Shown here: one piece after another, positions 1 through 8,147 of the stretch
Numbering within the stretch: position 1 is the first letter of the stretch
Layout: every line of letters starts with the position of its first letter
Assembly (NCBI GenBank): GCA_946639085.1
Contig: CAMPBP010000046.1
Span: 1-8,147, forward strand
Reading direction: 5' to 3'
Length of the DNA: 8,147 nucleotides
From: an uncultured Lachnospiraceae bacterium
GTDB lineage: Bacteria; Bacillota; Clostridia; Lachnospirales; Lachnospiraceae
Notes under the pieces: model-generated
Seen by the model: only the letters and a program-made list of their open reading frames with translations
The model's database searches: none
What the model was told of the DNA's origin: nothing
Made by a program: the position numbers and the translations under genes

Positions 1-142
1 CAAGAAAGTTACGTTCAACATATATCCTTTCTCTTATGTCCTTGTAGCGATACTGATTATTTCGGTGGCTATGGTCACATCGGCATTAAAGGGAAAGAGA
101 ATACAAACCCTTGAACCCGTTAAGATGATAACGGAAGAATAA
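1..142 (+). CDS. ABC transporter permease, FtsX/MacB type (C-terminal fragment)
   Basis: Open from the window edge, with whole codons starting at base 2 and a TAA at 140-142. The 46 visible residues hold one hydrophobic membrane segment (around FSYVLVAILIISVAMVTSA), then a basic turn (KGKR) and the ending IQTLEPVKMITEE. A last transmembrane helix followed by a short cytoplasmic tail of the 'L.PVK.I.EE' kind is characteristic of FtsX-like permeases of the MacB/Vex/Bce families, which couple ATP hydrolysis to mechanical work or export at the membrane. The ATPase and the rest of the permease lie outside the window. A two-component system follows directly, a common arrangement for peptide- or antibiotic-responsive transporters, but the hairpin at 153-185 suggests separate transcription. 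The substrate is unknown. Confidence 0.8.
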   Translation, partial: KKVTFNIYPFSYVLVAILIISVAMVTSALKGKRIQTLEPVKMITEE

Positions 143-152
143 AGAAATTATG

Positions 153-185
153 ACAGAATAAATCGCTTAGTGCGATTTATTCTGT
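153..185 (+). terminator. Perfect 14-bp hairpin, probable terminator after the ABC permease
   Basis: The arm ACAGAATAAATCGC (153-166) is exactly complementary to 172-185, with a 5-nt loop (167-171). It begins 11 nt after the permease stop codon. The stem is AT-rich at its base and has no clean downstream T run, so it is a moderate rather than classical intrinsic terminator. Its 3' arm overlaps the likely -35 region of the next gene. Confidence 0.6.
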
Positions 186-204
186 TCGTCGTTGATGTTA
201 TACT
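176..204 (+). promoter_or_regulatory. Candidate sigma-A promoter for the two-component operon
   Basis: A good -10 (TATACT, 199-204) lies 17 nt downstream of a weak -35 (TTTATT, 176-181). The -35 lies inside the 3' arm of the preceding hairpin. Transcription would start near 211, upstream of the ribosome binding site at 225-229. This supports the ATG at 237 rather than the in-frame TTG at 192 or ATG at 195, which would lie upstream of the transcript start. Confidence 0.5.
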
Positions 205-224
205 ATTTTAAAAACTATCGGAAA

Positions 225-229
225 GGGAG
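225..229 (+). promoter_or_regulatory. Ribosome binding site that fixes the response regulator start
   Basis: GGGAG, within AAAGGGAG, ends 7 nt before the ATG at 237. No comparable site precedes the in-frame upstream starts at 192 or 195, so translation most likely begins at 237. Confidence 0.7.
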
Positions 230-236
230 TAAAGGT

Positions 237-944
237 ATGCATTATAACTGTCTTATAGTTGACGATGAGACGGAACTTGCCCAGACCACAGCCGAATATT
301 TTAAGATGTTTGAGGTGTCGACAGCCTACGTTGACAGCGCAAAAGCCTGTTATGCCTTTTTTGAAGAAGGAAACAGCGCAGATCTTATATTGCTCGACAT
401 TAACTTGGGCGACGGTTCGGGTTTTGAAGTCTGCAAGCGCTTAAGAGAAGATATGCAGCTTCCCATCCTTTTCATAAGTGCGCGTCAAAGCGATGACGAT
501 GTTTTGATCGCTCTTTCCATAGGCGGAGACGATTACGTCAAGAAGCCTTACAGCCTGTCGGTACTGCTGGCCAAGGTCAAAGTTACTCTTAAACGTTTGG
601 GGATGACGGAAGGAACTCCGGGAGCCGCAAATCCGGAGGAAGAAAAAAGCACGTCGGAAGGCGAGATTCTTTCTTTGGACCCCAAGACCATGTCTGCGGT
701 TCTTAAGGGAAACAGGATTGCTTTAAAAGCCAAAGAGTATGCGCTTCTTTCGTGCCTCTACAACCATAAGAACACAATAGTCAAAAAGGAAGTGCTTTTT
801 GACGAAGTGTGGGGAGATGCGTTTTTCAGCGACAGTACACTTAACGTTCATATAAGAAAATTAAGAGAGAAGCTTGAAGACAATCCCAACGATCCCAAGA
901 TAATCAAAACGGTTTGGGGCACGGGATATTATCTTGAAGTATAG
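237..944 (+). CDS. OmpR/PhoB-family response regulator
   Basis: Cytoplasmic transcription factor of a two-component system, 235 residues from the chosen ATG. The receiver domain (about 1-120) begins MHYNCLIVDDE with the acidic pair D9/D10. The likely phosphoacceptor is D54 in LLDINLGDGSGF, with S81 (FISAR) and K103 (DDYVKKPY) as the other conserved switch residues. A short acidic linker (about 122-142) leads to a winged-helix DNA-binding domain (about 143-235), recognisable from LKAKEYALLSCL, the recognition-helix region STLNVHIRKLREKL, and the ending TVWGTGYYLEV. It is complete and of normal family length. The kinase gene starts 11 nt after its stop, so the two are co-transcribed. By family habit and position it may control the adjacent ABC transporter, but that is inference. 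A longer start at 192 was rejected because it overlaps the promoter. Confidence 0.93.
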   Translation: MHYNCLIVDDETELAQTTAEYFKMFEVSTAYVDSAKACYAFFEEGNSADLILLDINLGDGSGFEVCKRLREDMQLPILFISARQSDDDVLIALSIGGDDYVKKPYSLSVLLAKVKVTLKRLGMTEGTPGAANPEEEKSTSEGEILSLDPKTMSAVLKGNRIALKAKEYALLSCLYNHKNTIVKKEVLFDEVWGDAFFSDSTLNVHIRKLREKLEDNPNDPKIIKTVWGTGYYLEV

Positions 945-955
945 AGAGAAGACGT

Positions 956-2245
956 ATGAAACATTATGTGCGGATGAGCTCGATCTTTTTTATCGTAATG
1001 ATCGTGGCACTTTTGGCTTTTTATTCCACAAGCAGAAAATACATATACGAAAAAAGAGACATCACTTACTATAACGACCTCGTTTTTACCATCGAAGAGG
1101 AATATGCTTACGGAGTGAGCGAGGAAGTCCTTGAGGAAAAGTACGGTTGTGACATAGTCATTTCAAAAGAGATTCACAATCCGGAATTGGCCGATATTTA
1201 CAGCAACAACTCTTTTGTGCTGGATTTTGCTCCGAAGGGAGAGTATATCGGCAAGATCGCCTGGGCAGATTCTTTTGAGCTTTTTCATAACACAAAAAAG
1301 GCCATGTTCAACGCGGCCCTTATACTGTGGGTTATCATCTTTATCGCAGGATTCTGTGCCTTTGCGACCTTCTATTTTTCCTTCATAAAGCCTGTTGAGA
1401 ACATCAAGCATTTTTCCGAGGAGATCGCAAAAGGCAATCTCGATGAGCCTATTCCGATGCACAGGAACAATTTGTTCGGAATGTTTCTTGAGGCCTTCGA
1501 CCTTATGCGCATAAGGCTAAAGGAAGCGAGAGAAAAGGAGATCGAATCCGAAAAAGCAAGGAAAGAACTGGTAACGCAGTTAAGCCATGACATTAAGACG
1601 CCTATCGCCATTATAAAAGCAACCTGCGAATTGATGGAGCTTAAGCTTAGGATGAAAGACGGCGAGAATGAAGAACGTGATGATACGCTGGAAAAGGTGA
1701 CGCTGATCTCCAAAAAGGCACAGACCGTTACAGACATCATGAACAACGTCATGCATGCCACCATCGAAGAGCTTGAGAGCATCTCGGTAAACGTGGATAC
1801 GGAAAGTCTGAAAACGATCGATGAGTATTTAAGAAATATCAAGGACTGCGGAAATGTTATCGTAAAGAATGCTCCTCCCAAGTATCTGGTATATATGGAT
1901 AAGTTAAGACTTGAGCAGGTTATGGACAATATCATCGGTAACTCGCACAAATACGCGAATACCGATATTGAAGTAAGCTACAGCGAAGATACGGATGTTA
2001 TGATGGAGGACGGAAGCAAGGGAACCGTTGCCAAGATAACCATAAGAGATTTCGGTCCCGGTGCGGATGAAGAAGATATGACCCTTCTTTCGGAAAAATA
2101 CTACAGAGGCAAGAACGCCAAAGAAAGCAACGGTTACGGCCTGGGTCTCTATCTTGTAAAGTACTACATGGACAAGATGGGCGGAGGAATGGATTATTAC
2201 AACGACAACGGATTTGTTGTGGAACTGATGCTTAAGAAAGTTTAA
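956..2245 (+). CDS. Membrane sensor histidine kinase (HAMP, HisKA, HATPase_c)
   Basis: Partner kinase of the upstream response regulator, 429 residues. The N-terminal membrane helix is about 8-24. An extracytoplasmic sensor region of roughly 90 residues (25-114) follows, with no domain I recognise. The second helix is about 116-143. A HAMP linker begins KPVENIKHFSEEIAKGNLDEPI (145-166). The dimerisation/phosphoacceptor helix carries H211 in LVTQLSHDIKTPIAII. ATP-binding motifs are an N box (N325 and N329 in DNIIGNSHKYA), an F-like segment (LLSEKYYRGKNA, 378-389), a G1 box (DFGPGADEED) and a G2 box (NGYGLGLYLVKYY), so it looks catalytically intact. The sizeable external loop separates it from short-loop BceS-type kinases that sense through their transporter. 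The start ATG lies 11 nt after the regulator stop with a weak GAGAAG ribosome binding site. The ligand is unknown. Confidence 0.93.
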   Translation: MKHYVRMSSIFFIVMIVALLAFYSTSRKYIYEKRDITYYNDLVFTIEEEYAYGVSEEVLEEKYGCDIVISKEIHNPELADIYSNNSFVLDFAPKGEYIGKIAWADSFELFHNTKKAMFNAALILWVIIFIAGFCAFATFYFSFIKPVENIKHFSEEIAKGNLDEPIPMHRNNLFGMFLEAFDLMRIRLKEAREKEIESEKARKELVTQLSHDIKTPIAIIKATCELMELKLRMKDGENEERDDTLEKVTLISKKAQTVTDIMNNVMHATIEELESISVNVDTESLKTIDEYLRNIKDCGNVIVKNAPPKYLVYMDKLRLEQVMDNIIGNSHKYANTDIEVSYSEDTDVMMEDGSKGTVAKITIRDFGPGADEEDMTLLSEKYYRGKNAKESNGYGLGLYLVKYYMDKMGGGMDYYNDNGFVVELMLKKV

Positions 2246-2258
2246 TGGTTTACATAAC

Positions 2259-2289
2259 AGAAGAGCGTTTCGCCTTGAAACGCTCTTCT
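2259..2289. terminator. Convergent (bidirectional) terminator hairpin
   Basis: A perfect 13-bp stem, AGAAGAGCGTTTC (2259-2271) with 2277-2289 and a GCCTT loop, fills the 46-bp gap between the kinase stop (2245) and the end of the minus-strand acyltransferase (2292). Its position between convergent genes indicates it serves both. Neither side has a long T run, so the termination efficiency is uncertain. Confidence 0.7.
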
Positions 2290-2291
2290 TA

Positions 2292-3554
2292 TCACTGCTT
2301 TGCAAGTTTATAAAGTTCTTCGACAGCAAGCCTTGTCTTGGCGACTATATCCCCGGCATTTTTCGGGAAGCAGTAGTAGGCATTTTTCATATCGCCGATA
2401 TTGATCATGTCGCCGATCTCATACCAGAAGTAGTCTGCATTCAGACTGTAAGTGGAAGAGGGCTTCTGATAATAATCGATCTTACCGTTACAGCCCGTAA
2501 GATGAAAACCTTCTTTTGAGTGTGTGAGCTCTCCGGTACCGACTTTGTATAAGAATTTGCGATTGACTATCATGTATATGTCAACATCGGCTTTAAGGGA
2601 GTAAGTATCGTTTATGAGATCGTTTCTCACACATTCCCGTTCCCATTTAAACCAGTCGGGAATGTGGTTAAACTTTGCCTCGACGTTATCGCCCTTTAAG
2701 AAGCCGTATTCGTCGAGGGTATAGGAAGCGTTGCAGGCATCGCACTTTATGTGGATCCCCTTTCCAACCATTTGGCCTTCTTTGTTACAATGAGGGCATT
2801 TGTAAAGCACGCGGTTAAGCCCGTCCGCTCTGAAGGGCTCGTCTATCTTTATGTGATTTTCCTGCTGCCATTTAAACTGGTCGAAAGAAAAGCAGTCTTT
2901 AATTAGGCTGTTTATCTCCTCCACGCTCTTTTCTTCGATCTCCTCGGGACTTAAGAGATATCTGGTCTTACAACTTATGTCAACCTTTCTTATCTGGAGC
3001 ATGTTGTACAGAGGATCTCTTGTGAAGGCACCGTAGGTGTTTATCATAACTACGGGAACTTTAAGTTTTTTGATGCATTTACCGAGACTTTCGGGAAGGG
3101 TTGTTGCGGTTCCGTCAAAGGAGTAACCGGCTTCGGGATACATCAAAACGGAAGTTTTAAGCTTCCTTAACGCATAAGCCATGTCTTTTAAAAGATTAAG
3201 ATCTATAACGAACTTTTGAGTGGGTATGCAGCCCAAATGGCGCATGAGCATTTCTTTTCCGATAAAACCGTCAGTGGTGCACACGATCTGATAAGGACGG
3301 GGATAGAGCACCTTTGACGCGATCTCAAGGTCTATAAAACTTGAGTGGTTCATAAGGATAAGGCAGGGTTCGTTTTTGGGAAGCCTGTCCATATCTATTC
3401 GCTCTTCCTTAAAATGCGCTTTGTTAAGCTCGGATGTGGCAAGGAAATTAACTACCTTTTGAAGCGCAACATTTGGCTTTCTGGGGCGTCTGTGGGCCGG
3501 CCTTTTAAGTTTGATAAGTTCGTCATAGGAGATGTCTTTTATTTTGATCTTCAT
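2292..3554 (-). CDS. PlsC-like 1-acyl-glycerol-phosphate acyltransferase family protein with zinc-ribbon C-terminal extension
   Basis: 420 residues, minus strand. The first half (about 50-225) has the hallmarks of PlsC/LPLAT acyltransferases, which move a fatty acyl group onto lysophospholipids at the membrane: the catalytic HX4D motif NHSSFID (H70, D75) and the substrate-binding block MYPEAGYSFDGT (138-149), where EAG stands in for the usual EGT. The second half is not typical PlsC. It contains a four-cysteine zinc ribbon, CPHC (253-256) and CDAC (271-274), then about 145 residues rich in aromatic and charged residues with no domain I recognise. Ordinary bacterial PlsC is about 200-250 residues, so the extension is substantial. 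No clear transmembrane helix is visible. The start ATG is preceded by GGAG (3560-3563) at 5-nt spacing. It is transcribed divergently from the TraX operon. The family call is firm; the exact substrate is not known. Confidence 0.85.
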   Translation of the reverse strand: MKIKIKDISYDELIKLKRPAHRRPRKPNVALQKVVNFLATSELNKAHFKEERIDMDRLPKNEPCLILMNHSSFIDLEIASKVLYPRPYQIVCTTDGFIGKEMLMRHLGCIPTQKFVIDLNLLKDMAYALRKLKTSVLMYPEAGYSFDGTATTLPESLGKCIKKLKVPVVMINTYGAFTRDPLYNMLQIRKVDISCKTRYLLSPEEIEEKSVEEINSLIKDCFSFDQFKWQQENHIKIDEPFRADGLNRVLYKCPHCNKEGQMVGKGIHIKCDACNASYTLDEYGFLKGDNVEAKFNHIPDWFKWERECVRNDLINDTYSLKADVDIYMIVNRKFLYKVGTGELTHSKEGFHLTGCNGKIDYYQKPSSTYSLNADYFWYEIGDMINIGDMKNAYYCFPKNAGDIVAKTRLAVEELYKLAKQ

Positions 3555-3578
3555 GGCTGCTCCGAGTGTTTTCTTTCT

Positions 3579-3607
3579 ATCATACTACCTTAAGGTAAAA
3601 AGAAAAA
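3579..3607 (-). promoter_or_regulatory. Candidate promoter of the PlsC-like gene
   Basis: Reading the minus strand, TATGAT (3579-3584) is a fair -10, about 25 nt before the ATG. The -35 at 17-nt spacing (TTTTTC, 3602-3607) is poor, so expression may be weak or need an activator. A 12-bp palindrome fills most of the spacer. Confidence 0.4.
3586..3597. repeat. 12-bp perfect palindrome TACCTTAAGGTA, possible operator
   Basis: A perfect inverted repeat placed 1 bp upstream of the minus-strand -10, where a bound dimeric repressor would block RNA polymerase. No regulator is encoded next to it, and I saw no second copy in the window. The operator role is inferred from position alone. Confidence 0.4.
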
Positions 3608-3610
3608 GCA

Positions 3611-3670
3611 ACTTAGGCCCAATGTTGCAAAACGGAGCAAAATTGTTGTGGCAAGATTGTGCACTTAGGC
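3611..3670 (+). repeat. Direct repeat ACTTAGGC (3611-3618 and 3663-3670) in the divergent promoter region
   Basis: Two exact 8-bp copies, start to start 52 bp apart (about five helical turns), flank the region between the divergent promoters; both are preceded by a GCA-like context. The second copy abuts the likely -10 of the TraX operon. It may be a regulator site, but an 8-bp match can arise by chance. Confidence 0.25.
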
Positions 3671-3677
3671 GTAAAAT
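3649..3677 (+). promoter_or_regulatory. Tentative promoter of the TraX operon
   Basis: TAAAAT (3672-3677) is a reasonable -10, 30 nt upstream of the start codon. The corresponding -35 (TGGCAA, 3649-3654, 17-nt spacing) matches the consensus at only three positions. TTTAAT at 3678-3683 is an alternative -10. Confidence 0.35.
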
Positions 3678-3706
3678 TTTAATGATTCAAAAAGGAGAAT
3701 GATACA

Positions 3707-4420
3707 GTGAATATTTCAATCAACAGAAACCAACTTAAATATTTGGCGATAATCGCCATGGTGATCGATCACATCGGGTGGACTTTTGTTTCCATAGCAT
3801 CCATCCAGGGGCAGGTAATGCACTTTTTCGGAAGACTCACGGGGCCGATCATGGCATTTATGCTTTACGAAGGCTATCTTCACACCAAGGACATTAAAAA
3901 GTATGCATTAAGACTTGGTATTTTTGCACTTATCTCGTGGCCTGCATACAGTTTCTACGAAACAAGCAACTTCTTTGCCCTTCAGTTCGGCGTTATTTAC
4001 ACGCTGTTTTTAGCGCTTCTGACCCTTTGGATGTGGGACAAAGCAAATATCAAAAAATGGCTTAAGATAGTTCTTGTTGTGGTGGCTTGCATTTTGTCAT
4101 TGTTCGGTGACTGGCCCATATTCGATATTTTGTGGCCGTTGTTTTTATTTATCTATAAGGACGATCCGAAAAAGCAGTGGACATCATTTGCAATCGTAAC
4201 GGCTGTAGAAGTCATTCTGGTAAATCTGACATCGATCACATCAGCCATTCCTTACAGGCAGGTTTTCCAGATCGGTGCATTTATGGTTATTCCGATATTG
4301 GCATGTTGGTACAACGGTAAACCCGGCAAAAAGAACGCGTTCAACAAGTGGTTCTTCTACGTATTCTATCCGGTACATCTTTTGATATTGGCTTTAATAG
4401 TAACGTTGATCAATAAATAG
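3707..4420 (+). CDS. TraX-family integral membrane protein (putative acyl/acetyltransferase)
   Basis: 237 residues beginning at GTG, with AAAGGAG (3691-3696... ending at G3697 region) about 10 nt upstream. Family hallmarks are the N-terminal block NRNQLKYLAIIAMVIDHIG (residues 7-24, with D21/H22), the segment GRLTGPIMAFMLYEGYLHT (42-60), and a C-terminal block with YNGKPGKKN (202-210) and KWFFYVFYPVHLLIL (214-228). About seven or eight hydrophobic stretches make it polytopic. The founding member, F-plasmid TraX, N-acetylates pilin, and the fold resembles membrane acyltransferase 3 proteins. Chromosomal copies without conjugation genes, as here, are common in Clostridia and presumably acylate another surface molecule. 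It is the first gene of the run of four; the hydrolase begins 29 nt later. Family membership is firm; the substrate is unknown. Confidence 0.9.
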   Translation: MNISINRNQLKYLAIIAMVIDHIGWTFVSIASIQGQVMHFFGRLTGPIMAFMLYEGYLHTKDIKKYALRLGIFALISWPAYSFYETSNFFALQFGVIYTLFLALLTLWMWDKANIKKWLKIVLVVVACILSLFGDWPIFDILWPLFLFIYKDDPKKQWTSFAIVTAVEVILVNLTSITSAIPYRQVFQIGAFMVIPILACWYNGKPGKKNAFNKWFFYVFYPVHLLILALIVTLINK

Positions 4421-4449
4421 TCTGTTTTAAACGGATATGAAGGTATTAA

Positions 4450-5415
4450 ATGGACAAGCACGAAGAAAAAGCAAAAGAAAGATCCAATCAGGAAAAAAAG
4501 ACAGAAGAGAAGATAAAAGGAAGGCTCTTAAAGGCTTTTAAGGCGGTGAACTCCATATCGGGCAAATCCCTTACGGAGGCGGACATAAAGCGCCAGAGAG
4601 CTGCCCTTGAGAGAGCCGGAAAGCTTGTGGCACACACTTCTGACATTTTGGCGCGCCCCTTTACATTGGGCGATCTTCATTGTCAGGAGTTTACCCCCGA
4701 GTTTGCCCACAATCCCAAGTATGTGGTGATGTATGCACACGGAGGCGGATATATTTGCGGGGGACTTGATTACGCAAGGATACTTTCGGCCAAACTGGCC
4801 ATAGCGACGGGCTTTACGACTTATTCCTTCGCTTACAGGCTGGCTCCCGAGCATCCTTATCCGGAGGCTCTTGACGATGCCATGAGCATGTGGGATTATC
4901 TTACAGGGGCGGTGAAGGACGCCGATCATATTTTGCTTGCGGGTGATTCGGCAGGCGGAAATCTGGTGCTTTGCCTTACACAAAAGCTTAAAGAAGAAAA
5001 TCGACCTTTACCTAAGGCGATACTTCTTTTCAGCCCCTGGACGGATATGACCGGAACAGCACCTTCGTACGATGAAAACTGTGAGGTTGATCCGACTCTT
5101 ACAAAAGAGTATGTGATCGGCGCCGCCAAGGTTTACATAAGTTCGAAAGGCAATCCTTGGGATCCGCGGTTCAGCCCGTTATACGGAGATTTTTCTTCGT
5201 TCCCTCCTACCTATATCATGGCGGGGCGAAACGAGATATTGCTGGATGACAGCATAAGACTTAAAGAGAAGATCGCAGAAGCCGGCGGTAACGCGGTTTT
5301 GGACATAGAAGAGGACGGATGGCATGTATATCAGCAACTTCCGATCCCGTTGGCAAAGCGTGCGATGAAACGCCTTTCATCCTATGTGACTTCTTTAATA
5401 TACGATGAGACGTAG
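4450..5415 (+). CDS. Alpha/beta hydrolase of the hormone-sensitive lipase (HSL, family IV) type
   Basis: 321 residues, expected to hydrolyse small or acyl esters. The HGGG oxyanion-hole motif (97-100, in YAHGGGYICGG) and the nucleophile elbow GDSAGG (165-170, S167) define the HSL/family IV esterases. RLAPEHPYPEAL (130-141) is the usual conserved stretch between them. The likely catalytic histidine is H292 in DGWHVYQ. At the catalytic acid position, where many relatives read DPLRDE, this protein has NEILLDDS, so E262 or D266 would serve. The first 35 residues are highly charged (KHEEKAKERSNQEKK), with no signal peptide, implying a cytoplasmic or membrane-peripheral enzyme. The ATG has GAAGG 6 nt upstream. 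The short gaps (29 bp before, 41 bp after) with no terminator place it in an operon with the two acyltransferases, suggesting it removes or transfers an acyl ester in the same pathway. Confidence 0.9.
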   Translation: MDKHEEKAKERSNQEKKTEEKIKGRLLKAFKAVNSISGKSLTEADIKRQRAALERAGKLVAHTSDILARPFTLGDLHCQEFTPEFAHNPKYVVMYAHGGGYICGGLDYARILSAKLAIATGFTTYSFAYRLAPEHPYPEALDDAMSMWDYLTGAVKDADHILLAGDSAGGNLVLCLTQKLKEENRPLPKAILLFSPWTDMTGTAPSYDENCEVDPTLTKEYVIGAAKVYISSKGNPWDPRFSPLYGDFSSFPPTYIMAGRNEILLDDSIRLKEKIAEAGGNAVLDIEEDGWHVYQQLPIPLAKRAMKRLSSYVTSLIYDET

Positions 5416-5456
5416 AGGTTTCTTTGTACCCGATAAACTATTGAAACGAGGCGCTT

Positions 5457-6710
5457 ATGGGAAGCGATAATTGGTATAAAGTTGATAATGTGGCCAAAGT
5501 GTTTTTAGCTACCGTGACAAAGCGTGATCCCAGATCTTTGAGAGTCAGCTGTATGCTTAAAGAGGCTGTGGACCCGGATATATTGCAAAACGCGGTGCTT
5601 TCCGCAATTCAGGACAGACCGCAGATGCAGGTAAGGTTCAGAAGAGGCATTTTCTGGCACTATATGGAGGATACGGACATTCTTCCGAAGGTGAGCGAGG
5701 AGAGCGACCGTATGTGTTTAAATCTTTACGCTCCTGCCAAGGCAATGCTCCATTACAAGGTCACATATTTTAAAAACAGGATAAATCTCGATATGTTTCA
5801 TGCTCTTTCCGACGGTACGGGAGCATTGGAGTTTTTGAATATCATTGTACTCGACTATCTTAAACTTAAGTATCCAAAAGAGTTTGACGATGTGACCGTT
5901 CATTCGGGAGCATGCGCTGATGATCTCAATCAGGACAGTTTCAGACAGTTTTTCGAGAATATGACACTGTCGGGAGGCACCTACAAAAAGAAGGCTTATA
6001 AGCCGGGAACTCTTAAACTTCCCTACAATCAGCTTCAGTTTTTTGAGATACATATGCCTGTAGACGTTATGTTAAAGCAGGCAAAAGAACTTAAAGTATC
6101 TCTTACTAGTTTCTTCGGCGCCGCATGGATGATGGCCATTCACAACGGTATGCCGCCCATGAAGAGAAAACTACCCGTGACCATCACTTTGCCGGTCAAT
6201 TTAAGAAATTATTATCCCTCGCAGACTTCGAGGAATTTCTTTAATAACGTTTATGTAACGCACATATTTGATAAGGAGATATCCTTTGAAGAGTTGGCCC
6301 GGGAATTTGACGTGACGCTTAAAAGCCAGCTTACCGAAGACAAGATCAAAAAGCAGATGGAGCGTTTTGAAACGATGGAATATGTGGCACCGGTCCGCGC
6401 AGTTCCGCTGTTTATAAAGCAGCTGGTAGTAAGGTCGGGCTCGAGAATAAGCGACCGTAAGGCATCCATGGTATTCTCGAATCTGGGTGTACTTAATCCG
6501 CCCAAGACAGTTGCTGACAAGATAGACAACTACAGCACTTTCTGCAGTTCGATGAATCTTTTCGCCACCGTATCAAGCTACAAGAATGAGCTTACTTTCG
6601 GAGTTTCATCTCCTTACATAAGCACCTCAGCCGTAAAGAATTTCGTCAGATTCTTTTCCGAAAAAGGTGTGGATATCACTGTATATGCTACGGAGGTGGT
6701 GGGAGCATGA
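5457..6710 (+). CDS. HxxxDG acyltransferase, alcohol acetyltransferase/condensation-domain-like
   Basis: 417 residues. Its key signature is FHALSDGTGALEFL (114-127), where H115-x3-D119-G120 matches the catalytic HxxxDG motif of the CoA-dependent acyltransferase superfamily (alcohol acetyltransferases, PapA-type and NRPS condensation domains). The architecture fits: an N-terminal lobe with ILQNAVLSAIQDRPQMQVRF-like sequence (42-61) leading to the motif, then a C-terminal lobe with TLPVNLRNYYPSQTSRNFFNN (244-264) and VFSNLG (339-344), the latter resembling the latch/floor-loop region. No carrier-protein or adenylation domain is present, so it is a standalone enzyme rather than an NRPS module. 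It would move an acyl group from CoA or another thioester to an alcohol or amine. GAGG (5448-5451) lies 5 nt before the ATG. The stop codon overlaps the start of the next gene (ATGA), implying translational coupling. Donor and acceptor are unknown. Confidence 0.75.
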   Translation: MGSDNWYKVDNVAKVFLATVTKRDPRSLRVSCMLKEAVDPDILQNAVLSAIQDRPQMQVRFRRGIFWHYMEDTDILPKVSEESDRMCLNLYAPAKAMLHYKVTYFKNRINLDMFHALSDGTGALEFLNIIVLDYLKLKYPKEFDDVTVHSGACADDLNQDSFRQFFENMTLSGGTYKKKAYKPGTLKLPYNQLQFFEIHMPVDVMLKQAKELKVSLTSFFGAAWMMAIHNGMPPMKRKLPVTITLPVNLRNYYPSQTSRNFFNNVYVTHIFDKEISFEELAREFDVTLKSQLTEDKIKKQMERFETMEYVAPVRAVPLFIKQLVVRSGSRISDRKASMVFSNLGVLNPPKTVADKIDNYSTFCSSMNLFATVSSYKNELTFGVSSPYISTSAVKNFVRFFSEKGVDITVYATEVVGA

Positions 6711-7372
6711 AAACCTGTCCTTATTGTAAGATCAAGGTCGGAGGCGACCTTAAAAAATGCCCTCTGTGCCAGAGCAAGATTGTGGGAGAGGGTGAAAGTT
6801 ACTATCCCAGTCCCTCAATTCTTAAACTGAGATCACCTTTATACAGAATACAGCTTTTTATTGTGTGGGTCGTGATCATAGCGGCACTTGGTATCGATTT
6901 TCTGTTCAACCTTCGCATGCCGGGGTTTGAGAACGTTCACTACAGCCTTATCATTGCCATGTGGCTCATGGTATTTGAGTTCGTGATAATGAAGCAGTTC
7001 CAAAGGGGAACGGGTTCGTCAAGAAATATGACGCTTCTTGTATTCCTGCTTCTGGGAATGCTTTTGATAACATCGTATTTCTTTGGATTTTTCGATTTTA
7101 CGGTTGACTGGATAGTGCCTATAGCACTTTCGGCAGCCATGGTCGCAAACTTTGTGCTTGCGATGATAGACAAACAGGGTAACGCCATGGCGTATCTGCT
7201 TACCAACATTTTCGTGGGGGCGGTTCCTTACGCCGTAATGTATTTCAGTCATCGTGAGACTCCCGTCACATGGATACTTTGTCTCATGATCAGCGTGGTC
7301 TTGTTCGCAGGAGCTGTAGTGTTCAAAGGACGTGCGGTGGCTGCGGAGTTCAGAAGAAGGCTCAATCTGTAG
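6707..7372 (+). CDS. Zinc-ribbon, six-TM membrane protein (DUF6320-like)
   Basis: 221 residues. It starts with a small zinc ribbon, CPYC (4-7) and CPLC (18-21), then a linker with YYPSPSILKLRSPLY. Six hydrophobic helices follow at about 48-67, 78-95, 108-127, 134-154, 161-180 and 187-206, and a basic cytoplasmic tail ends FRRRLNL. There is no signal peptide; the ribbon should be cytoplasmic. From memory, this arrangement matches proteins annotated DUF6320, a family of unknown function often found beside HxxxDG acyltransferases; I could not check that. The 4-bp ATGA overlap with the upstream acyltransferase, with GGAGG at 6692-6696 inside that gene, points to co-translation and perhaps a complex in which this protein anchors the enzyme at the membrane. 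It contains no obvious catalytic motif. Confidence 0.75.
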   Translation: MKTCPYCKIKVGGDLKKCPLCQSKIVGEGESYYPSPSILKLRSPLYRIQLFIVWVVIIAALGIDFLFNLRMPGFENVHYSLIIAMWLMVFEFVIMKQFQRGTGSSRNMTLLVFLLLGMLLITSYFFGFFDFTVDWIVPIALSAAMVANFVLAMIDKQGNAMAYLLTNIFVGAVPYAVMYFSHRETPVTWILCLMISVVLFAGAVVFKGRAVAAEFRRRLNL

Positions 7373-7386
7373 TTTTAATCGGTATG

Positions 7387-7415
7387 TTGACAGATGATTT
7401 TGTTTCTGATAGACT
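7387..7415 (+). promoter_or_regulatory. Strong sigma-A promoter of the hflX leader
   Basis: A perfect -35 TTGACA (7387-7392), a 17-nt spacer, and -10 TAGACT (7410-7415) preceded by TGA (7407-7409), an extended -10. Transcription should start near 7422. It is the best promoter in the window and lies only 14 nt after the upstream operon's last stop codon. Confidence 0.75.
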
Positions 7416-7456
7416 TCGTTTCGTAATTGATTTTGTAGAAAGAGAGGTAATCATAA

Positions 7457-7522
7457 ATGCGGATCAGGATTTTAGAAAACGAAAAACAGAATAATATGAT
7501 GACCTCGGTTTGCGTATTTTAG
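7457..7522 (+). CDS. 21-codon upstream ORF (putative leader peptide of hflX)
   Basis: ATG to TAG, 21 residues, beginning MRIRILENEK and ending MMTSVCVF. GAGAGG (7442-7447) lies 9 nt before the ATG, a plausible Shine-Dalgarno. The start is about 35 nt downstream of the predicted transcription start, and the stop is 3 nt before the 5' arm of the hairpin at 7526. The peptide has no signal sequence or membrane helix. Its basic start, NEKQNN middle and hydrophobic end are not a known leader I can name, and no run of a single amino acid's codons suggests amino-acid attenuation. It more likely reports general ribosome progress or drug-induced stalling. Confidence 0.55.
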   Translation: MRIRILENEKQNNMMTSVCVF

Positions 7523-7525
7523 TTT

Positions 7526-7562
7526 CGCCGGTTTATGACAGATTTATCGCTGTCTTTTGGCG
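7526..7562 (+). other. Leader hairpin between the upstream ORF and the terminator
   Basis: CGCCGG (7526-7531) pairs with TTGGCG (7557-7562; four Watson-Crick and two G-U pairs). Above an internal loop, GACAG (7537-7541) pairs with CTGTC (7550-7554). The segment GCCGGTT (7527-7533) could alternatively pair with AACCG..GC of the terminator 5' arm with a 2-nt bulge, so this element may also take part in switching. Confidence 0.45.
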
Positions 7563-7592
7563 TAAGAAGTTTTATCTGATATTGTGATCGTT

Positions 7593-7623
7593 AACCGCGG
7601 CTTTTTAGCTGCGGTTTCTTTTT
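7593..7623 (+). terminator. Intrinsic terminator in the hflX leader
   Basis: AACCGCGGC (7593-7601) pairs with GCTGCGGTT (7608-7616), nine pairs including one G-U, around a 6-nt loop, followed by the T-rich run TTTCTTTTT (7615-7623). It is the strongest terminator in the window. It would stop transcripts from both the upstream acyltransferase operon and the leader promoter, 71 nt before the hflX start codon. Confidence 0.85.
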
Positions 7624-7680
7624 ACCCTATTTCAGGTGAATTACCCGCGTTCGAGGTCTTTATGAAATCTTTGACATAAA

Positions 7681-7685
7681 GGAGG
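7681..7685 (+). promoter_or_regulatory. Strong ribosome binding site of hflX
   Basis: GGAGG, within AAAGGAGGAG, ends 8 nt before the ATG at 7694. This near-perfect site implies that control of hflX, if present, acts on transcription rather than on a weak start. Confidence 0.85.
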
Positions 7686-7693
7686 AGAACTGT

Positions 7694-8147
7694 ATGAGAG
7701 AATATAATGAAGAATTTGCCCCGGTGGTAATGGTGGGGCTTAGAATAAGCGAATCGGACGAAGAGTTCGATCATTCCATGGAAGAACTTGAGAGCCTTTG
7801 TGAGGCATGTGAACTTGCGGTGGTAGATACCGTTACACAGACCCTTGCCCATCCGGACAACGCTACGTGGATAGGCTCCGGAAAAGCGGAAGAACTGGCG
7901 AGAGCCGTTGAGATTGACGGCGCGGAATACGCTATATGTCTTGGTAACCTTTCCCCCGCTCAGATGAAAAATCTTCAAAAGATAATAAAGGTTCCCGTCT
8001 GGGACAGGACGAATCTTATTTTGGAGATCTTTTCAAGACGTGCCAAAACAAGAGAAGCAAGGCTGCAGGTGGAATCGGCGTATCTTCAGTTCATGATGCC
8101 CAGACTTACCGGTATGTGGCAGCATCTCGGACGTCAGAGCGGCGGTG
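7694..8147 (+). CDS. hflX: GTPase HflX (N-terminal part, cut by window end)
   Basis: Open to the window edge; 151 whole codons are visible. It encodes the N-terminal domain of HflX, a ribosome-associated GTPase that splits stalled or stress-damaged 70S ribosomes and, in some Firmicutes (HflXr), contributes to resistance to macrolides and lincosamides. Diagnostic stretches are TWIGSGKAEEL (residues about 58-68), LSPAQMKNLQ, PVWDRTNLILEIFSRRAKTREA, LQVESAYLQF and PRLTGMWQHLGRQSGG at the window end. The glycine-rich end is the loop just before the GTPase domain; that domain, with its P-loop, lies beyond the window. Start ATG 7694 follows an excellent ribosome binding site. Its leader carries a small ORF and terminator, suggesting induction when translation is impaired. 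Whether it is a housekeeping HflX or an HflXr-type resistance factor cannot be told from this fragment. Confidence 0.95.
   Translation, partial: MREYNEEFAPVVMVGLRISESDEEFDHSMEELESLCEACELAVVDTVTQTLAHPDNATWIGSGKAEELARAVEIDGAEYAICLGNLSPAQMKNLQKIIKVPVWDRTNLILEIFSRRAKTREARLQVESAYLQFMMPRLTGMWQHLGRQSGG

Follow-up and report, generated by a model that had tools for sequence, protein, structure and literature searches.

Three leaders described in Bacillus subtilis and Listeria monocytogenes come closest to the leader analyzed here, and their features are given as they appear in the excerpts of the papers cited. The vmlR leader of B. subtilis contains a small upstream open reading frame (uORF) within an anti-antiterminator, followed by an antiterminator, an intrinsic terminator and a hairpin that covers the gene's ribosome-binding site (PMC9226507). 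The rli80 leader of L. monocytogenes controls hflXr and contains a uORF of 14 amino acids with the motif RLR; a mutant of its start codon is not inducible (PMC6310831). The bmrB leader of B. subtilis controls the ABC exporter bmrCD, and its response to lincomycin needs translation (PMC4191407). Among the literature matches listed, no description of an rsgA or hflX leader of Lachnospiraceae was found, and the excerpt of PMC11109978 mentions neither gene nor this family.

The leader analyzed here precedes hflX in a stretch of 8,147 nucleotides, referred to as the window, from an uncultured Lachnospiraceae bacterium (assembly GCA_946639085.1, contig CAMPBP010000046.1, positions 1-8,147, forward strand). 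An earlier note on this DNA had described it as a candidate ribosome-sensing attenuator. The observation was upheld by our analysis, and the leader proved to belong to a large family that is found mostly before RsgA genes.

Parts of the leader before hflX

All features of the leader lie on the plus strand. A promoter scan located TTGACA-17-TAGACT at 7387-7415, with 10 of 12 consensus bases and a TG before the -10 hexamer (extended -10). The uORF (7457-7522; 21 codons, MRIRILENEKQNNMMTSVCVF) was taken from the list of open reading frames and the sequence, and is preceded by GAGAGGT. It is followed by an extra spacer hairpin (7537-7554; GACAG-loop-CTGTC), which is absent from the leader of the related genome G010, and by an intrinsic terminator (7593-7624), identified by terminator scan and folding, in which a hairpin of 10 pairs (7593-7616) is followed by TCTTTTT. 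The open reading frame list and an HflX search placed the 5' portion of hflX at 7694-8146, truncated at the contig end. The promoter scan found no plus-strand promoter-like site within 7617-7693; two weak plus-strand sites overlap the uORF (7471-7500), 5' of the terminator. The promoter, the 21-codon frame with its ribosome-binding site, the hairpin, the terminator and the lack of a promoter after it had all been claimed in the earlier note, and each was recovered. The terminator scan of both strands of 7000-8147 returned seven terminator-like sites compared with 1.2 in shuffled sequences, and such a scan alone is not proof. The genes upstream of hflX in the window encode a response regulator, a histidine kinase, an acyltransferase (other strand), a TraX-like protein, an alpha/beta hydrolase, an acetyltransferase-like protein and a DUF6320 protein.

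Four segments of the leader are designated A to D. Segment A (7443-7454, AGAGGTAATCAT) consists of the uORF ribosome-binding site and the next bases, and is the partner of B in the anti-antiterminator. Segment B (7496-7511, ATGATGACCTCGGTTT) is the switch strand and lies within the 3' end of the uORF. Segment C (7593-7601) is the 5' arm of the terminator. Segment D (7652-7663, CGAGGTCTTTAT) lies beyond the terminator and has two alternative partners, B and the hflX ribosome-binding site (ATAAAGGAGGAG, 7676-7687), the 5' part of which it covers according to sequence and folding. B is complementary to three strands: A, C and D. The complementarity of 7503-7514 to 7589-7600 had been pointed out before and holds at 10 of 12 positions, one G-U pair included. 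Two further relations had been missed: the uORF ribosome-binding site in A is also complementary to B, and D is complementary to B and able to pair with the hflX ribosome-binding site.

A family of leaders and the genes behind it

In a BLASTN search with the leader, another site in the same genome as the window matched at 93% identity across 29 bases, at the end of the uORF. This site (L092 1100-2060, minus strand, G000:C45; L231) contains a uORF ending in MKTSVCVF, a terminator, a post-terminator segment and then a gene for a second type of RsgA. The pattern AAAGNGAGGTAN{42,62}GACCTCGGTT was found in at least 116 stretches of the named genomes, compared with about 10 matches expected by chance in that collection (a hand estimate assuming even base composition). 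A uORF of 20-24 codons was present in 79 of the 80 pattern matches listed, and 71 of the 80 came from records titled Lachnospiraceae, Butyrivibrio, Pseudobutyrivibrio or Eubacterium. One match, L160 (Opitutales), was dropped as a chance occurrence. In addition, 12 regions from among many low-scoring BLASTN matches in the genus and family were examined, and eight were leaders.

A covariance model of 49 leaders, the hflX leaders among them (R1), matched 17 of 18 genomes in the genus at E <=0.1 (16 of these at E <1e-8), 44 of 397 in the family at E 0.01, and 20 of 295 in the order at E 0.001, 13 from the same family and seven from other families. In the class six of 291 genomes matched, and the two outside the order were weak and lacked A and B. 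Because R1 includes hflX leaders, a second model (R2) was built from 47 leaders with the hflX leaders left out. R2 still found them in G010 (94.7 bits), in the window (62.6 bits) and in G014 (47.1 bits). In the window R2 placed its terminator columns on the extra hairpin at 7537-7554, because the spacer there is unusually long, and the true terminator was a separate partial match of 18.2 bits. No Rfam 15 family matched the window leader (E cut-off 5) or the leaders of eight relatives (E cut-off 1), and searches of plasmids and viral contigs returned no leader match. Thus, the hflX leader is a member of a large leader family without an Rfam counterpart and not a local invention of hflX.

The non-redundant set used below contains 103 leaders, including at least two weak matches (L264 and L292) that are probably not members. 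The arm CCGYGG occurs in 94 of the 103. A permissive script identified a terminator-like hairpin in 78 of 79 relatives among the matches listed; L112 runs off its stretch. In the 49-leader alignment the terminator stem varies in pairs, for example T-A in 33 and C-G in four leaders, or A-T in 39 and G-C in seven. A chance terminator beside a chance small frame, with no regulation, has the frequency of terminator-like and promoter-like matches in this stretch of the window to recommend it. It is scarcely credible and is already contradicted by the family, as a model built without any hflX leader matches the window at E 2.1e-12 and the segments are conserved in G010 and G014.

The uORF is conserved in frame rather than in its N-terminal sequence, which varies across the family. 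The distance from the uORF start to the B core GACC is 41, 44, 47 or 50 nt, a single frame, in 79 of 79 uORFs among the matches listed, despite a variable spacing (3 to 9) of the uORF ribosome-binding site. Of 81 non-redundant uORFs, 76 end at one common codon position, with TGA (39), TAA (27) or TAG (10). This comparative evidence argues that the uORF of the family is translated. The peptide end YSMxTSV is encoded where strand B lies, and RNA pairing probably keeps it constant. The drug-arrest motif +X+ occurs within the first nine residues of only five of the 81 uORFs, and RIR was therefore rejected as a macrolide sensor conserved across the family. Since the N-terminus varies and +X+ is rare, a specific drug is not readable from the uORF. 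The earlier note had tied its reading to conservation of the small frame and of its pairing in relatives, and both are conserved.

The leader stands before hflX in only three of the 18 genomes of the genus set (L001-L018): that of the window, G010 and G014. No model match was found upstream of the other 15 hflX genes; in G017, for example, hflX begins immediately after another gene. Over 151 residues the start of the window HflX is 100% identical to G010, 87% to G014 and 74% to G017. In G010 and G014, which are of the same genus, the promoter hexamers, uORF and terminator are conserved, as is GACCTCGGTT, the 10-nt core of the switch. Also retained in both are A, the B core and D, the last identical in the two. 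The promoter hexamers and the 17-nt spacing are the same in all three leaders, yet the segment ending at 7440 matches G014 at only 44 of 62 positions (71%). G010 shares only 37% identity with the window across the 108 window bases of spacer and terminator; its terminator is altered as a set of pairs (AACCGTGGC/GTCACGGTT), with CGGTT/AACCG retained. The uORFs are MRIRILENEKQNNMMTSVCVF in the window, MRIRILENEKQNNMMTSVGTF in G010 and MRIRILEKHELNNVMTSVRVF in G014 (GTG start), and RIR is present in all three.

Window positions 7523-7693 are 100% identical to G014 and 37-67% identical to G010. The window uORF, unlike this segment, is nearer to G010 (95%) than to G014 (89%), and so is the HflX start at the protein level (100% and 87%). 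The leader seems from these identities to be a mosaic with a recombination joint at the uORF end.

The full-length HflX of G010 passes the equivalog cut-off of TIGR03156 GTP_HflX (NCBIfam; 408 bits, cut-off 216.75). The best match among solved structures is chain D of 8a57, deposited as GTPase HflX (340 bits), which we take to be Listeria HflXr. HflX matches numbered one per genome in 18 of 18 genomes, several of which are incomplete; on this count the window hflX may be the only HflX of its genome rather than a resistance paralogue. The HflX proteins of the genus are of two types, one window-like (51-100% identity, eight genomes) and one distant (37-44%, 10 genomes), distributed as if one replaced the other.

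The first gene behind the 103 leaders encodes RsgA or an acetyltransferase-RsgA fusion in 75 cases. The remainder are ABC transporters (9), acetyltransferases (6, one of which, L158 in the GNAT cluster, is a wrong-frame artefact), HflX (2), methyltransferase-like proteins (2), others (8) and a contig end (1). These names derive from Pfam and NCBIfam searches on single members. In the genus, 15 genomes gave a strong PF03193 match to RsgA (180.5-196.1 bits) and 15 gave a second one (158.7-172.5 bits); we label these "housekeeping" and "second" by score, for the genus only. An R1 match precedes the second RsgA, on its own contig and strand, in 15 of 15 cases, and the housekeeping RsgA in 0 of 15.

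RsgA genes behind the leader (L105, L229, L116 and others) frequently encode a long N-terminal part that resembles an acetyltransferase. Pfam identified a GNAT domain in L105 and none in L229 at E 1e-5, where the acetyltransferase name comes from reading of the sequence. In L222 (1501-3154) the leader is followed by a gene for an RNHCP-domain protein and then by an RsgA gene, an order suggesting a small operon.

More diverged leader matches, whose membership in the family is less certain, precede genes for ABC exporters, acetyltransferases and an M3 peptidase, and one lies some way upstream of an NFACT gene. Those before multidrug-type ABC exporters (L245, L246, L248, L267-L269, L273, L298, L299, L302-L304, L306 and L312) have longer uORFs (..ITSV.., ..TASG..) and terminators. 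They may belong to a broader superfamily, one that might take in bmrB-like leaders as well. In L313 (292-2754; G161:C5) an NFACT gene (Pfam NFACT_N, 526 bits) has a leader-like element about 0.5 kb upstream; that the element regulates this gene is a guess.

Genes for ribosomal factors are frequently autoregulated, and this general knowledge speaks for a leader that binds a protein (HflX, RsgA or a ribosomal protein) and in which the uORF is incidental. Such a leader is very improbable here. The uORF frame is kept in 79 of 79 cases among the matches listed and the stop is kept while its identity varies, and the same kind of leader precedes genes for unrelated proteins.

Switch strands and predicted folds

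Covariation was evaluated for each pairing of strand B against shuffled alignments, which ignore relatedness. The D motif was found in 53 of the 103 leaders, and in these 307 of 371 B:D positions were paired, compared with 277.4 (sd 4.2, maximum 293) in 5000 shuffles. When B and D were slid out of register only 41-164 positions paired; in register, 30 cells had changed on both sides and 64 were broken. These values were obtained with the anchor GRKCTCC, as a first D anchor picked terminator tails (406 of 552 paired compared with 378.0) and was discarded. D pairs with the ribosome-binding site of the gene over at least six contiguous bases in 48 of the 50 leaders in which both the D motif and the site were found.

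The cores of A and B are fixed by the search pattern, and the A:B test therefore covers the extension beyond the core. In the main (GACC) class of 88 leaders 338 of 528 extension positions were paired, compared with 297.7 (sd 5.2, maximum 317) in the shuffles, which here too ignore relatedness. In register 320 of 425 were paired compared with 131-240 when slid, and 34 cells had changed on both sides. In 20 diverged leaders the A:B covariation was not significant (70 of 120 compared with 64.6, sd 3.3). A:B as a long perfect helix was rejected in favor of a 6-bp core with a variable extension. The third pairing, B:C, is nearly invariant and hardly covaries. Its flanking pairs (CC/GG and CGG/CCG) are complementary in at least 92 of 94 leaders, and a fixed T-T or T-C mismatch is paired in 0 of 94.

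Folding was then constrained with a ribosome-sized block. In the window without a ribosome, A:B has a probability of 0.73 in RNA ending at 7560, 0.03 at 7600 and 0.00 later; other pairings replace it, and B is still unavailable to C and D. In RNA to 7608, B:C is 0.00 without a ribosome, 0.73 with a ribosome at the AUG, 0.30 at codon 3 and 0.00 at the stop. In the full leader, B:D and D with the ribosome-binding site (D:RBS) are 0.07 and 0.87 without a ribosome, 1.00 and 0.00 with a ribosome at the uORF start, and 0.00 and 0.94 at the stop. The complete terminator, in RNA up to 7622, reaches 0.92-0.95 at equilibrium in all ribosome states.

In the family, 88 of the 103 leaders and 49 of the 53 with the D motif could be folded in this way; the rest have no recognized start, ribosome-binding site or CCGYGG arm. 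A:B exceeded 0.5 in 78 of 88 nascent leaders without a ribosome and in none with a ribosome at the start. B:C exceeded 0.5 in nine of 88 nascent leaders without a ribosome, in 63 with a ribosome at the start and in none with a ribosome at the stop. The corresponding numbers for B:D were three, 37 and 0 of 49, and for D:RBS 40, nine and 37 of 49. With shorter 5' flanks they were 3, 33 and 0 of 49 for B:D and 40, 13 and 43 for D:RBS. Blocking five bases of A alone gave B:D above 0.5 in 35 of 49, like a ribosome at the start, and a ribosome-sized block in the spacer did so in three of 49. A block of that size 5' of A also weakens A:B and gave B:D above 0.5 in 14 of 49.

The predicted folds are OFF when the uORF is empty or finished and ON when a ribosome stands at its start. 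In the earlier note, ribosomes that finish the uORF were held to mask 7503-7514 and early arrest to leave it free, and constrained folding agrees with this direction in the window and in 63 of 88 relatives. That reading keeps its direction and is amended in three respects: the leader is a member of a large family, a translational layer and an anti-antiterminator come in addition, and the terminator wins at equilibrium. Overall the results support the earlier reading as right in direction and incomplete in scope.

The equilibrium result bears on which layer is regulated. If the terminator were a constant brake, the switch would be mainly translational, and only the choice between B:D and D:RBS would be regulated. 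This agrees with the terminator winning at equilibrium in all states as B:D and D:RBS flip, and with B:D covarying where B:C barely does. Nevertheless, we consider it improbable, since C retains its complementarity to B (in at least 92 of 94 leaders for the CC/GG and CGG/CCG pairs) and since rli80 and vmlR, in the excerpts cited, regulate termination. We favor instead a switch that probably acts on both transcription and translation. Antitermination would have to be kinetic, because at equilibrium no ribosome state yields a fold more stable than the terminator.

Interpretation and comparison with described attenuators

We propose, at a probability of roughly 0.75, that the leader is a ribosome-position switch, in which a ribosome held at the first uORF codons would turn hflX on. 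With an empty uORF, A:B would form, the terminator would form, and in any transcript that reads through D would cover the hflX ribosome-binding site; this state should also be OFF because the anti-antiterminator and the translational layer exist. A ribosome that reaches the uORF stop would cover B and leave the leader OFF, as with the empty uORF. A ribosome held at the start or at early codons would cover A and free B. The freed B should then pair with C before the 3' arm of the terminator (C') is synthesized, which would delay the terminator, and its pairing with D would release the hflX ribosome-binding site.

The trigger is likely early arrest of the ribosome by translation inhibitors. The same RNA switch could instead report on the translation machinery itself (defective 30S subunits, slow initiation or ppGpp), with ribosomes lingering on the uORF ribosome-binding site and so freeing B. 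Such a signal would suit a family in which most members precede a gene for RsgA, a GTPase of 30S maturation, and in which the uORF N-termini are variable without a common arrest motif; vmlR, according to the excerpt, is also induced by ribosome-assembly defects (PMC9226507). We regard it as possible and distinctly less probable, as the more diverged leaders precede multidrug-type ABC exporters and the well-studied leaders of the same logic respond to antibiotics.

More broadly, we lean slightly toward the view that the leaders are an undescribed, widespread class forming a ribosome-distress regulon of Lachnospiraceae and neighboring families, in which one switch strand has three competing partners. 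A ribosome-repair set, made up of a dedicated second RsgA (in many cases an acetyltransferase fusion), HflX, acetyltransferases, drug exporters and perhaps the NFACT rescue factor, would be placed under the direct control of ribosomes caught at the first uORF codons, and hflX would have been recruited recently by gaining a copy of the leader. If true, ribosome-repair proteins would be produced when ribosomes are in trouble; HflX is a ribosome-splitting enzyme and RsgA acts in ribosome maturation. Ribosome arrest would then be linked, in a testable way, to the production of RsgA and HflX, both of them ribosome-bound GTPases, in a major family of the gut and rumen. In the window's genus the leader flags the likely inducible RsgA copy by sequence alone, and from the split of 15 of 15 against 0 of 15 the second RsgA copies are predicted to be stress or resistance factors, a role for which no paper was found among the literature matches listed. 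The covariance model can also be used to find further ribosome-stress genes.

The leader has several features of this kind of attenuator. First, it contains a uORF with a conserved frame and stop. Secondly, it has a terminator before the gene and a hidden ribosome-binding site. Third, it has an anti-antiterminator, A:B, which in the window is only transient. B:C is a candidate antiterminator, which in folding forms in nascent RNA and loses at equilibrium; its complementarity is conserved and nearly invariant. The kind is thus known from vmlR, rli80 and bmrB; the family, its main target RsgA (the second copy in the genus) and the arrangement in which a uORF supplies both switch strands, with its own ribosome-binding site and its own 3' end, are undescribed among the literature matches listed.

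The three described leaders were compared with ours by their excerpts. Like bmrB, the present leader has a small ORF that is probably translated and is predicted to control a terminator, and diverged matches of the family also precede ABC exporters; bmrB differs in that its ORF encodes 53 amino acids and encloses the terminator (PMC4191407), and the comparison covers the arrangement. Like rli80, it has a uORF, a terminator, a candidate antiterminator and an anti-antiterminator before an HflX gene (PMC6310831). Here too the comparison covers the arrangement. The rli80 uORF has 14 amino acids with RLR, and that of the window has 21, with RIR in the three hflX leaders. A macrolide motif of the RLR type does not mark the family (+X+ in five of 81 uORFs), and the leader is not classed as a member of rli80. 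The vmlR leader has the four-part logic predicted here, and its induced fold disrupts the hairpin that hides the ribosome-binding site of the gene (PMC9226507). However, vmlR has a uORF of three codons (Met-Ile-Asn) whose ribosome-binding site is single-stranded before SL-1 (PMC9226507), whereas the leader described here has a uORF of about 21 codons, whose own ribosome-binding site is strand A and whose own 3' end is strand B, and it precedes different genes.
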